Shown here: one piece after another, positions 28,587 through 33,475 of the stretch
Layout of the letters: each line of letters opens with the position of its first letter
Position numbering within the stretch: position 1 is the stretch's first letter
Assembly (NCBI GenBank): GCA_014728295.1
Contig: WJLW01000024.1
Location: forward strand, 35,272 to 99,271
Direction: 5' to 3'
Length of the DNA stretch: 64,000 nucleotides
Origin: Chitinivibrionales bacterium
Lineage (GTDB): Bacteria > Fibrobacterota > Chitinivibrionia > Chitinivibrionales > WJKA01
Program-made: the position numbers and the translations under genes
The notes under the pieces: generated by a model
The model's input: only the letters and a program-made list of their open reading frames with translations
What the model was told of the DNA's origin: nothing
Databases searched by the model: none

Positions 28587-30485
28587 TTAGTCCGGCTGAC
28601 TTACCATAACTCCGTTTTCAAATTCACTTCTGGTAACAAGCTCTCCCTCTTCATCGTAAGTTCTGGTGACACCGATTTTAAGACCGTCGCGGTACTTCAT
28701 TGACGTTTGCACCTTTCCGTCGGGATAGTACCATACGAATTTGCCGTCTTTGCGTCCATCCCGGTATCCCATGCGAAAATGGCGTTGTCCGGATTCGTAG
28801 TAGCCGTGAATTGTCGATCGGTCATTGCGCTTGCTGCGGCTGATTTTTTCGCGAATGCCCCCGGTGCGATAATAGCTGATTTGATCACCGACCGATTTGC
28901 CGTTTACATAGGCGGCGAATTCCTTGAGGGCGCCGTTGGCGTAATATTCCTTGTATTCGCCTTCAAGAACGCCGTTTTTCACGTGCTTTATCGATTGCAA
29001 CTGGCCGTTTTCAAAGTAGCTTTTTACCATGCCCTGCTCTTTGCCGCTTTCGAAATAGACGATTTCCTTTATTTTTCCCGATTCATAATACGTTGTCGTC
29101 GGTCCCTGATTTACACCGTGTTTCATACTGGTTTCTTTGCGTATCTTGCCGCTTTTATAAAAGAGACGGGAGACACCTTCTGGCTGATCGAGCTTGTAGG
29201 TGATTCGTGCCCGTTTATTTCCATTTTCATAATAAAACAATGCCGTGCCGTTCAGCTTACCTTCTTCATACTGCGTTTTTTCGCGAATGGCACCGGTTGC
29301 ATAATACTTCAGCGCCGTGCCGACGGGAACGCCATCTTCAAAATGAATCGATTCCAGCAACTCTCCCTGGGGATGGTACACGCGCGTCGGGCCGTGCCGT
29401 AATCCGTTGTCAAAATCGATTTCCGACCGTATCCGGCCGTTACGATAATAGAGCCTGGCGGTGCCGTCCGGCCGATTGTCGACAAAGTCAAGTTCTCCGC
29501 GTACGCTTCCATTGGGGAAATAATAGACTGAATAACCGTTCCTGACGTCCTCCTTGTAACAGGCTTCCTCCATTTTGGAACCGTTTTCATAGTAGGTTGT
29601 GCGCACATCGCATTCGTCAAATGCCTCTTCGGGAATGTGCACGAGGTGCTTCTCGACCGTCTGGCGGGGTGTCGTAACGGTTGCTGTATCAACTGCCTGC
29701 AGGTCTTCCTCTTCGAAAATGTCGCCAAAATCAACAACTGACGTGTCGCGCTGCTCCGGCGCCGGTTTTTTGGGGATTGCCGGGAAGCCGATTATCTCAT
29801 AGACCATGCGGCGATAGGTTCGGGCCAGCGCGAAGGTGGAATCCGCTTCGAGCGCACGGGTATAGTGTTGCGCCGCCGTATCGAGCGCAACGCTGTCGTG
29901 TATGCCGCGGTGAGCATTGAGGCCTTTACCGAACCCGGCCAGCGCGGCGATATTTTGCGACCCATGCGATTCAACTTTATTGCGCACGTATTCTCCGAGC
30001 GGTACGTCCAGCACGCTGCAGATCGATTGAGTGAGTTCGTTGAGCACCGGCATGATCTCGGCGCCGCGCATAGGCACGTCGCGCTCGAACGTTCGAAAGA
30101 TAAGGCCTGATTCCGTATCAATTACCTTGGCTGAAATACGGCAGGTGTTAAGCGTAATGAGATATTGCCCTTTTATCGTCATGGAAATGCCGAACACATC
30201 ACCGGCCCGGCGCAGTTTGTCTTTGTCGATAATTTGGCTTTCTGCAGAATTGGTTGTTTCGATAAAATCGGCCAGTCTGGTTCTGTCAAGAACTTCAATG
30301 CCGGTTTCCTCAAGCTTGACACTGACCAGTTCGGCCAGTGCATACCCGAAACCGGGCCGCGCCTTGTCGGCAATCATGCTGGTAAAGGGAAGCACGGCAG
30401 TCGAAGTCGGTGTTGGGGATTGCCCGAACACGGTAGCCTTGATGCACACACTTGCTACCAGGGAAAATCGGATCATGCGTTTCAT
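28587..30485 (-). CDS. CsgG-like/MORN-repeat secreted protein
   Basis: The product has about 632 residues; I prefer ATG 30485 because it places the signal MKRMIRFSLVASVCIKATVFGQS at the N-terminus (GTG 30503 is the listed alternative). Residues up to about 150 form an alpha/beta domain like those in CsgG/TolB-N type lipoprotein regulators (TAVLPFTSMI, YALAELVSVKLEETGIEVLDR). After a linker, about a dozen MORN_2-type repeats of some 23 residues follow (YYENGNKRARITYKLDQPEG; YYESGKIKEIVYFESGKEQG). Repeats of this kind occur in YwqK-like proteins and many surface proteins of the FCB group. The function is unknown; a surface or ligand-binding role is plausible. Confidence 0.82.
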   Translation of the reverse strand: MKRMIRFSLVASVCIKATVFGQSPTPTSTAVLPFTSMIADKARPGFGYALAELVSVKLEETGIEVLDRTRLADFIETTNSAESQIIDKDKLRRAGDVFGISMTIKGQYLITLNTCRISAKVIDTESGLIFRTFERDVPMRGAEIMPVLNELTQSICSVLDVPLGEYVRNKVESHGSQNIAALAGFGKGLNAHRGIHDSVALDTAAQHYTRALEADSTFALARTYRRMVYEIIGFPAIPKKPAPEQRDTSVVDFGDIFEEEDLQAVDTATVTTPRQTVEKHLVHIPEEAFDECDVRTTYYENGSKMEEACYKEDVRNGYSVYYFPNGSVRGELDFVDNRPDGTARLYYRNGRIRSEIDFDNGLRHGPTRVYHPQGELLESIHFEDGVPVGTALKYYATGAIREKTQYEEGKLNGTALFYYENGNKRARITYKLDQPEGVSRLFYKSGKIRKETSMKHGVNQGPTTTYYESGKIKEIVYFESGKEQGMVKSYFENGQLQSIKHVKNGVLEGEYKEYYANGALKEFAAYVNGKSVGDQISYYRTGGIREKISRSKRNDRSTIHGYYESGQRHFRMGYRDGRKDGKFVWYYPDGKVQTSMKYRDGLKIGVTRTYDEEGELVTRSEFENGVMVSQPD

Positions 30486-30669
30486 GCTGGTGTTTCTGCT
30501 CACTTCAAATATCGTTATCTGACTACAATTGCCTTAATTATACAATACATGCCGGTATGCATACAGTGCTTGCCGTCACAATCTGAAAATGGTATACTCA
30601 AAAATCAGGCCGGGCGCATAAGCTGTGCACCCCGGCTGCTGTTTTGTGGGAATCAACCAAGGCGAGAGT

Positions 30670-31761
30670 ATGTCGATCGGCAATCGCACCTTTTTTACCG
30701 CAGAGCACATTCTGGCTCACAAAGGCAGTGCTCCGGCACAACTGGCCGAGCAGGTGGTATACTGTCTGGAACTGGTTGCCGAGCTGGTAGGGCAGGGGCT
30801 GGACTACCAGTTCAAAGGCGGTAATTCACTGCTGGTTATCTTGCAGGATCCGCAACGCTTTTCGATAGACGTCGATATAGCCACCGATGAGCCGCGGGAG
30901 AAAATTGAAACCTGCCTCTCATCGTTAACGGCGCTTTCGGACGTCTTTTCGCGCTGGGAACCGCGCAAACATAAAACCAAACCCTGGATCCCTCTTGCCA
31001 GCTACTACCTTTATTTCGATTCACGTTTCGTTGCGCCCGAAGATGCGTTTATCATGCTTGACGTTCAGCTCAGCAAAAGCCCCTACGCCACCGAGCCGAA
31101 AAAAATTCAATGCCGTCGTCTCTATACCGCAGACGTGAAGGTCAACGTACCCACACCCGGGGCCATCATCGGCGACAAGCTACTGACTCTGGGACCGTCA
31201 ACTCTAGGCATTCCGATTGGTAAAGGCAAAGATGCTCAGCGCATCAAGCATGCATTTGATGTGAGCCTGCTGCTGGAAACCGGGCCCGCAGCATCAGAAA
31301 TCAGAGAGAGTTTTTGCGCCTGCATCGGTCACGAGGAAGAAATTCAACAGCGAACCATTCCGATTGACGAGGTCGTATTCGATACGCTCAAGCTCTGCGC
31401 GAGCGTCGCCGGATTCGAACACAAACCTCAAGCAGATGCTGATCGCCTGCATCCCTATCTGTACGAAAACTGTATCGGACTGCCGGATTTTATGCCGCAT
31501 GTGTTTGCGCGACCCTACGACTGGGCCACTCTGCAGGTCGACTTTTCGCGCGTTGCCCTCGCCCTGTGCGCCGCACATGATGATAAGCTTGACGAACAGC
31601 AGTTTGCTCTGATGCTCGATCCGGTCTTTGAATCACACTCTCTTCACCTGATCGACGAGGGGATTTTGCATCATAATCAGCTCGCCCGGAATAACTGGGC
31701 GAAGGTCTGCAGCCGAATGGGTCGTCGCTTTGCCGAATTATCCCCCGTCCAGAGTGACTGA
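30670..31761 (+). CDS. AbiEii/nucleotidyltransferase-superfamily toxin-like protein
   Basis: The start is ATG 30670 behind AAGGCGAGAG; the ORF start at 30625 is not needed. The product of about 363 residues has the AbiEii-type nucleotidyltransferase motifs: FKGGNSLLVI followed by FSIDVDIAT (the GG...S-x-D-x-D metal motif). A later IIGDKLLTLGPSTLGIP, then KGKDAQRIKHAFDVSLLLE, matches the conserved EKL...K..R..FD.. part of AbiEii. In AbiE systems this protein is the type IV toxin that modifies nucleic acid. The usual AbiEi antitoxin gene is not upstream. A 53-residue ORF overlaps its stop instead. Confidence 0.84.
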   Translation: MSIGNRTFFTAEHILAHKGSAPAQLAEQVVYCLELVAELVGQGLDYQFKGGNSLLVILQDPQRFSIDVDIATDEPREKIETCLSSLTALSDVFSRWEPRKHKTKPWIPLASYYLYFDSRFVAPEDAFIMLDVQLSKSPYATEPKKIQCRRLYTADVKVNVPTPGAIIGDKLLTLGPSTLGIPIGKGKDAQRIKHAFDVSLLLETGPAASEIRESFCACIGHEEEIQQRTIPIDEVVFDTLKLCASVAGFEHKPQADADRLHPYLYENCIGLPDFMPHVFARPYDWATLQVDFSRVALALCAAHDDKLDEQQFALMLDPVFESHSLHLIDEGILHHNQLARNNWAKVCSRMGRRFAELSPVQSD

Positions 31762-31922
31762 TGAATACTATTCATACTATCGCGCAACTACGTCAGCAGG
31801 CGGCACACATCAAAAAGGCCGCCGGCTCCCGCCTCATCACCCGCCAGGAAGTCATCGTGCTTGCGGCCGAAGAGCTTGCACGAACTTATACCCGTGACGA
31901 AAAACGGGCTTCCGGCTCATGA
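31761..31922 (+). CDS. Small hypothetical protein (53 residues), AbiEii operon
   Basis: This gene is not in the ORF track. ATG 31761 shares its A with the TGA of the AbiEii-like gene, and its own TGA overlaps the ATG of the glycosyltransferase gene by four bases. The product, MNTIHTIAQLRQQAAHIKKA followed by AGSRLITRQEVIVLAAEELA and a short basic tail, is a two-helix-like small protein. No family is recognised. Its placement inside a tightly overlapping triplet makes it likely to be translated, and it is a candidate partner or antitoxin for the AbiEii-like protein. Confidence 0.68.
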   Translation: MNTIHTIAQLRQQAAHIKKAAGSRLITRQEVIVLAAEELARTYTRDEKRASGS

Positions 31923-33475
31923 ACGCTTCAACTGTCGATAAGACGCTGGTTGTATTGCCCAATAACCTGGGCGATGTCATCATGGCTACGCCTCTGCTCG
32001 AAGGGTTGCGGAAAAATCATGCGCCGGGATTCATTGCCTATCTGGTGGAAGAGGGATTCGAGGCGGGTCTTATCAATAATCCACATGTCGATACCATTAT
32101 CACCTTTCCTCGGCGGCACATACGCAATCTGCTGAATTCCGCCAATTGCCAGGAAGGCATCCAGGATCTGACCAGCACGCTCTATGGCATAGATGGATTG
32201 CAGTTCGATACGATTGTTAATCTCAGCCAGCATCCGTATGTTTCATACCTTGTCTCTGCAATTTACGCCCGCAACAGGATGGGACAGCATTTTCTGCTCG
32301 AAGGCAATCACGCCGTTGACGACGACTGGTCACAGTATCTTTATGCCGTCCCCTTTGCCCGAAGTTGCAACGACCTGCACGCAACGGATGTTTATCGGCG
32401 GATCGCCGGTGCTTGCGAGCATTGCGGCCGGGGAACCATTGTGCTGAGCAAAGATGAACTGCAAGATGCCGGCCGGCTTCTGGCCGAATGCGGCGTTCGG
32501 TCTGAAGCCACAAAACTCATGCTCTTTCAGCCCGGGGCCGCGATGGCGTCGAAGCGATGGGGCGTAGACTCCTTTGTAGCGCTTGGCCGCCGCCTGACGA
32601 ATGTGGGCTGGACCATTGGCGTGATGGGCGCACCATTTGAAAAAGAAGAAGCCGGCGCTATCGTCAACGGTATCGAGCAATCGGCCTTTTTGCTTGCCGG
32701 ACACACCTCATTTCGGCAGGCAATCGGGATAACGGCGCATGCCGGAGGCCTGGTAACCGGCGATACGGCACTGATGCATGCCGCAGCCGCATTGCAGACG
32801 CCGCTTTATGCGCTTTTCGGCTCCACGAGTCCTGTAGAAACCGGTCCTTACGCTTCCGGATGCTGGGTCTTCTCGGCAAGGTGCAAAAAGCGGCCGTGCT
32901 TCAGGGAGAGCTGCGACGCAATGAGTTGCATGAAGTCAATCGCCGCTGACGATGTGTTTCATTGCATTCACCATCAGGCTCCGCCCTCGGGTGCACGGTG
33001 TGACATATTTCGTACGGTTTTGGAACCAAACGGCGATTACAGCCTGATCCCCGTTGCCGGTGCAGAACAGTATTATGTGAACACGGCCGATGCGGTTATA
33101 CTCAGGTCGGCCTTTGAGGAGCACGTACAGGTAGCCCACCTGATAGATGAGCTGGACTTGCAGCAGACTTGCCGCAACGGCGGGCAATTGCTTGAGAAAC
33201 TGCATGCCATGATCGATCTCCTTCAGCAATTCACCGAAAGCAAAGACCGCAGCCATATCACCAACTTTGAGCATATGAAAGGCAGTCTCGAAACTCTGGA
33301 AGGAATCGGCGCGTTCTGGAAGGCGGTGCTCAATATTCGGCTCAACAGCATTACGCTGTGCGATCCGCTCCGGGCAATCACGGCATCATTGCAGGTTTGT
33401 CGGAGGACCGCCCGGCAGATCGAGCAGGCAATCGCCCCTCATACAGCTTCGATCGAAAGCTCAATCACGGAATAA
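31919..33475 (+). CDS. Glycosyltransferase family 9 (heptosyltransferase-like) with C-terminal extension
   Basis: This 518-residue protein has an N-terminal Rossmann-like domain starting TLVVLPNNLGDVIMATPLLEGLR, the signature of GT9 ADP-heptose:LPS heptosyltransferases. The second domain contains LFQPGAAMASKRWG (donor-binding), TGDTALMHAAAALQTPLYALFG and GSTSPVETGPY. GT9 enzymes are about 340 residues long. Here roughly 150 extra residues follow, mostly helical, with no recognised domain. It starts by ATGA overlap with the small ORF, so the AbiEii-like gene, the small protein and this transferase form one transcription unit. Confidence 0.86.
   Translation: MNASTVDKTLVVLPNNLGDVIMATPLLEGLRKNHAPGFIAYLVEEGFEAGLINNPHVDTIITFPRRHIRNLLNSANCQEGIQDLTSTLYGIDGLQFDTIVNLSQHPYVSYLVSAIYARNRMGQHFLLEGNHAVDDDWSQYLYAVPFARSCNDLHATDVYRRIAGACEHCGRGTIVLSKDELQDAGRLLAECGVRSEATKLMLFQPGAAMASKRWGVDSFVALGRRLTNVGWTIGVMGAPFEKEEAGAIVNGIEQSAFLLAGHTSFRQAIGITAHAGGLVTGDTALMHAAAALQTPLYALFGSTSPVETGPYASGCWVFSARCKKRPCFRESCDAMSCMKSIAADDVFHCIHHQAPPSGARCDIFRTVLEPNGDYSLIPVAGAEQYYVNTADAVILRSAFEEHVQVAHLIDELDLQQTCRNGGQLLEKLHAMIDLLQQFTESKDRSHITNFEHMKGSLETLEGIGAFWKAVLNIRLNSITLCDPLRAITASLQVCRRTARQIEQAIAPHTASIESSITE

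Follow-up and report, generated by a model that had tools for sequence, protein, structure and literature searches.

An operon of Chitinivibrionales that joins an AbiEii-like nucleotidyltransferase, a new family of small proteins and an extended GT9 glycosyltransferase

Members of the AbiE family are known for their role in defence, and enzymes of the GT9 family are able to alter phage receptors. The known AbiEii/MenT toxins modify tRNA (PMC10435456, PMC7725324), and the MenA1 antitoxin of M. tuberculosis is a 7.4-kDa protein in which a single helix is enough for antitoxicity (PMC11375011). In the literature searched on AbiEii together with a glycosyltransferase or as an orphan, and on DUF6577, the arrangement presented here was not found described.

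The window is a stretch of 64,000 nucleotides from a 5.3-Mb metagenome-assembled genome (MAG) of 134 contigs, which belongs to the Fibrobacterota order Chitinivibrionales. The named GTDB relatives used for comparison were Chitinivibrionales and Chitinispirillaceae of the same phylum; all of the compared genomes are MAGs, several of them incomplete and with contig breaks. An AbiEii-like ORF, a 53-aa ORF and a GT9 ORF lie in a row on the + strand of the window. As an earlier note on this DNA had stated, the genes overlap, by 1 nt at TGATG (31759–31763) and by 4 nt at ATGA (31919–31922), and no AbiEi adjoins the AbiEii-like gene. The upstream gene is divergent. The features are as follows:

30670..31761, + strand: AbiEii/DUF1814-family nucleotidyltransferase, 363 aa, first gene of the operon (PF08843, PADLOC PDLC02299)
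30811..30876, + strand: nucleotidyltransferase motif I of the AbiEii-like protein, FKGGNSLLVILQDPQRFSIDVD (G50 G51 ... S65, D67xD69)
31165..31269, + strand: second conserved block of the AbiEii-like protein, IIGDKLLTLGPSTLGIPIGKGKDAQRIKHAFDVSL (K170, K185–K187, K193, D197)
31761..31922, + strand: 53-aa protein of a new family (profile, alignments, model, dN/dS)
31919..33475, + strand: GT9 (heptosyltransferase-fold) glycosyltransferase, 518 aa (PF01075, alignment, model)
32966..33475, + strand: C-terminal extension of the GT9 protein, about 165 residues (alignment of 17 orthologues, model)

A MORN_2-repeat protein with a weakly FlgO-like N-terminus is encoded at 28590–30503 (− strand), divergent from the operon, and has the same position in G001.

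The 53-residue ORF, which the earlier note had proposed as a new protein, is real. Homologous ORFs of 50–66 aa were found directly upstream of nearly all long GT9 orthologues in the loci of relatives; in G012, the GT9 fragments are on contigs other than that of the small gene, and in G016, masked bases precede GT9 and a separate contig carries the small gene. A profile built from 18 small ORFs matched exactly 19 of the 40 genomes of the order, all of them with a long GT9, at E-values of 1e-9 to 1e-24. Thus, the ORF is conserved outside its source genome, and the profile matches (best E 7e-24) together with a dN/dS of about 0.3 in two within-genus pairs rule out a chance reading frame. The AlphaFold2 model (pLDDT 91.4) has three helices (residues 3–20, 28–41 and 45–51). 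The conserved tail reads (E)I-A/S-RT-x-T-x-x-E, in which T44 and E47 are invariant, and conservation runs along helices 2 and 3, as in a folded domain. No Pfam or NCBIfam family was matched by the protein, and PDB sequence and fold searches gave nothing significant. Two marginal candidates, Pfam tRNA_anti-like (E 0.08) and NCBIfam TprA (17 bits, where the cut-off is 150), were rejected because they appeared in only one of 16 members. Based on these comparisons, the 53-aa ORF is a genuine, previously undescribed protein family.

The partner of this protein was sought by counting co-occurrence over the 40 genomes of the order; it should be noted that the Fisher tests ignore shared ancestry. The small ORF and the extended GT9 were found together in 19 genomes, singly in none and were both missing from 21 (p 8e-12, ancestry ignored). 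For the small ORF and AbiEii, the corresponding counts were 12 genomes with both, 7 with the small ORF alone, 12 with AbiEii alone and 9 with neither; AbiEii was thus present in 12/19 genomes with and 12/21 without the small ORF (p 0.76, again regardless of ancestry). An obligatory link to the nucleotidyltransferase of the MenAT1 kind was therefore not found for the small gene. Judged by gene content, its partner is GT9, and AbiEii is distributed independently. Genomes that have both AbiEii and the cassette nearly always carry them side by side, which leaves room for some link to AbiEii.

These counts bear on the proposal that AbiEii and the small protein form a new two-component system. The corresponding mechanism would make the helical 53-aa protein a miniature antitoxin of the nucleotidyltransferase in a MenA1-like toxin–antitoxin unit. 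The TGATG coupling with AbiEii, the helical model, the sufficiency of one helix in MenA1 (PMC11375011) and the conserved serine of motif I are consistent with it. However, 12 of the 24 genomes with AbiEii have no small ORF, 7 of the 19 with the small ORF have no AbiEii, the pairing of the small ORF with GT9 is perfect and AbiEii descends vertically. The two-component system is thus not supported, and the antitoxin role appears quite unlikely.

The GT9 ORF matches PF01075 with 106 bits (E 2e-30). Its model (pLDDT 89.7) has a GT-B fold, with 3tov, 1psw and WaaC (2gt1/6dfe) as the best PDB matches. Residues D19, K212, E241 and D282 are invariant among the aligned orthologues; from general knowledge of WaaC, we take them to be of the catalytic type. 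The protein thus has three traits of GT9 heptosyltransferases, the GT-B fold, the GT9 profile and the conserved D/K/E/D set. As the GT9 domain stops close to residue 350, the protein has about 165 additional residues, slightly more than the 150 first estimated. This extension was modelled as a beta hairpin followed by a four-helix region and has the motif GIxAFWxALLNIRLNSI, with N472, L475, N476 and S477 invariant in 17 aligned orthologues. A search of 61 relatives for GT9 yielded long orthologues of about 500 aa, and a GTDB scan with the N-terminal domain gave only 18 loci, 17 of them with Fibrobacterota-type names and one labelled just "bacterium". Two mirror-image GT9 loci with identical scores (L130 and L131) lie on one 18,984-bp contig (JAAYPC010000065.1, G029:C187) and are probably an assembly palindrome.

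A recurrent gene order across families is AbiEii, small ORF, GT9 and a Zn-ribbon SAM methyltransferase (Methyltransf_23). The fourth gene was invisible to the earlier note because it is on another contig of the window genome (C119; L117 826–1560). All 19 cassette genomes have the methyltransferase, which is tied to the cassette (p 0.0002) and not significantly to AbiEii (p 0.3). In the cassette-less G005, G015, G033 and G034, AbiEii adjoins the methyltransferase gene, and in G010 the two are separated by one unrelated ORF. G004, of the same genus as G010, has the full order of four genes. In another genus, G030 has the small ORF, GT9 and the methyltransferase, and G035 has only AbiEii at the same place. 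The small ORF and GT9 are missing together in both within-genus comparisons and therefore move as one cassette. In place of AbiEii, a radical-SAM/BATS gene lies upstream of the cassette in G003 and a DUF362 ferredoxin-like gene in G030.

The AbiEii-like ORF matches Pfam PF08843 with 53.7 bits (E 3.6e-14) and PADLOC PDLC02299 with 160.8 bits (E 1.3e-47); phmmer found no match for it in the PDB. When 151 relatives were searched with the window protein, about 24 genomes, from the order and its closest neighbours, proved to have a conserved orthologue. Motif I, including its serine, and the second block are kept in the operon-type copies, so the enzyme is probably intact and active. The DUF6577-paired copies match motif I as FKGGtsL...R.S.DiDi. 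DUF6577 is directly upstream in all nine distant homologues checked (six from Fibrobacteraceae, three from Bacteroidota plasmids). An upstream profile scan detected it only at the six loci from Fibrobacteraceae and, wherever the sequence ahead of an operon-type copy could be read, at no such copy; the genes before these copies are mostly divergent. Its profile, PF20217, has hits in only 2/40 genomes of the order, none of them next to an operon-type copy. G037 has both types: DUF6577 (C282:499–1107) beside a second AbiEii homologue (C282:1170–1811), and an operon-type copy on C97 without DUF6577.

In the tree, the 24 operon-type copies group in a single clade, apart from the DUF6577-paired copies (support 100/100); within it, the largest host family (16 copies) is monophyletic, and family labels change near the minimum number of times. 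Instead of the patchy, mobile distribution expected of type IV AbiE, descent follows host families and the operon is conserved across genera. A nucleotidyltransferase with motif I is present, as in type IV AbiE, and an adjacent cognate antitoxin (AbiEi or DUF6577) is absent. The protein is, as far as gene neighbourhoods tell, not part of a type IV toxin–antitoxin unit. An ordinary type IV pair does occur on contig C116 of the same genome (L001 1444–2921), where a conventional AbiEii is overlapped by an adjacent AbiEi_4-like gene, so a solitary AbiEii is not a genome-wide habit. The suggestion of a domesticated toxin is supported by the intact catalytic motifs, the missing DUF6577-type partner, the single clade following host families and the conserved operon, and the protein would then be non-toxic. 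By eye, the operon-type AbiEii of G041 overlaps the end of an elongation factor P-like gene (L081 1537–3284).

Further genes point to the pathway in which the cassette may act. A CgeB-like glycosyltransferase (Glyco_trans_1_2; E<1e-15) was found in 15/19 cassette genomes and in 0/21 others. In Chitinivibrionales, its gene is away from the cassette and, in several contexts, beside a PfkB-family sugar kinase; the two overlap on contig C47 of the window genome (L165 5421–7330), and by eye the pair recurs in G001, G003, G004 and G019. In the outgroups G041 and G043, the gene directly before a GT9 relative encodes a CgeB-like transferase that ends in a tail similar to the small protein. The similarity is weak and was noticed post hoc; the two tails rank 1 and 2 of 256 C-terminal tails (E 0.005 and 0.014). 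The tail-bearing genes are L052 314–1492 and L054 399–1496, and the adjoining GT9 relatives have a further C-terminal stretch.

The rfaE domain II gene (ADP-heptose synthesis) is present in 16/19 cassette genomes and 8/21 others (p 0.004, ancestry ignored). In the window genome (G000), it is divergent from a gene for a 398-aa flagellin (contig C93, L177 2931–4962). By listed coordinates, similar neighbours seem to be present in G001, G002, G003, G027, G029 and G031. An HPr-kinase-like gene, a radical SAM protein gene and an S24/S26 peptidase-like gene lie in a row at L177 5054–7723 (by eye), which looks like a peptide-modification locus. Of the 40 genomes of the order, 38 encode flagellin; the exceptions, G010 and G035, also lack the cassette, which G004 and G030 of the same genera have. 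There is no flagellin gene in the operon, and flagellin presence does not separate genomes with and without the cassette (p 0.49). Since 19 flagellin-bearing genomes have no cassette and rfaE is kept in the flagellin-less G010 and G035, a flagellar target is only suggested. A link of the operon to a heptose glycan, be it on LPS or on flagellin, is plausible.

Based on the above results, the locus is probably a glycan-modification operon in which the small protein serves as an accessory module of GT9 and a domesticated AbiEii is inherited vertically. Family identities, the perfect pairing of the small ORF with GT9, antitoxin absence, the single clade and operon conservation are established from sequence. 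We suggest the following mechanism. The 53-aa protein would be a dedicated module of the long GT9, probably a subunit for activation or docking. Most likely, GT9 takes a heptose-type sugar from a presumed donor and attaches it to a surface acceptor, of which flagellin may be the best single candidate, and it would work together with the CgeB-like glycosyltransferase and the Zn-ribbon methyltransferase. The AbiEii-like nucleotidyltransferase would be a domesticated, catalytically intact enzyme that descends within the operon without the DUF6577-type antitoxin of its relatives.

A bolder form of this scheme is a tentative possibility: the nucleotidyltransferase may itself have become part of glycoconjugate synthesis, where it might, for example, nucleotidylate a flagellar or surface glycan or a glycoprotein. 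It would act alongside a new class of GT9 in obligate pairing with a mini-subunit that stems from a CgeB-like glycosyltransferase or is fused to one. It is also conceivable, though rather improbable, that AbiEii and the methyltransferase serve some other function, RNA modification for instance, and are only incidentally co-transcribed with the small ORF and GT9. Their adjacency in four cassette-less genomes, the tRNA-modifying activity of known AbiEii/MenT enzymes (PMC10435456, PMC7725324) and the overlap with the EF-P-like gene in G041 agree with this, whereas the tie of the methyltransferase to the cassette rather than to AbiEii and the recurrence of the four-gene order across families argue against it.

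The strict pairing with a glycosyltransferase could also mean that GT9 glycosylates the small protein, which would then be its substrate (an acceptor, RiPP-like, or a carrier) and not a subunit. The invariant Thr44 within the conserved C-terminal motif, the nearby methyltransferase and the radical-SAM (BATS) gene upstream in G003 would fit. However, helices 2 and 3 are conserved like a folded domain without leader/core organisation, and the similar stretch in G041 and G043 is a glycosyltransferase tail, more like a docking module; we consider an acceptor unlikely. The notion of an abortive-infection phage-defence set linked to LPS can draw on the PADLOC match of AbiEii, the standing of its family in defence and the effect that GT9 enzymes can have on phage receptors. 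It finds no support otherwise: the antitoxin is missing, AbiEii descends with host families, and PADLOC returned no match for the small protein or GT9. This reading is very improbable.

The probable glycan-modification operon thus provides a clear example, at the level of sequence, of a protein from an abortive-infection toxin family that was long kept without an antitoxin and is tied to surface glycan genes. It also adds a new family of small proteins that have a glycosyltransferase as their partner. It raises the question of what AbiEii-type nucleotidyltransferases do besides killing, and it warns that labelling AbiEii genes as defence from a profile alone is unsafe.

Compared with type IV AbiE systems (AbiEi/AbiEii; MenAT), the operon protein shares the nucleotidyltransferase family and an intact motif I (GG...DxD) but has no AbiEi, AbiEi_4 or DUF6577, stands in a fixed operon with glycan genes and descends by host family. 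Its closest homologues found outside the operon clade are the DUF6577–AbiEii pairs of Fibrobacteraceae (L028–L033) and of Hymenobacter and Bernardetia plasmids (L136–L138), with about 28–37% identity to the window protein; these form a separate, more divergent group with DUF6577 directly upstream, which the operon-type copies lack. The operon GT9 has the GT-B fold and catalytic-type residues in common with WaaC/WaaF (2gt1, 6dfe, 1psw) and the Veillonella GT9 (3tov), but differs from them in its small partner gene, which is obligate, and in a conserved helical extension of 165 residues at the C-terminus. The TibC-type protein heptosyltransferase (4rap, 4rb4) is a weaker fold match, a fold neighbour only, with 12–13% identity and a different extension. 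Finally, CgeB-like Glyco_trans_1_2 glycosyltransferases co-occur with the cassette, and directly before GT9 in G041 and G043 they have a tail resembling the 53-aa protein, whereas the small protein of Chitinivibrionales is a separate protein and the CgeB-like gene lies elsewhere in the genome.
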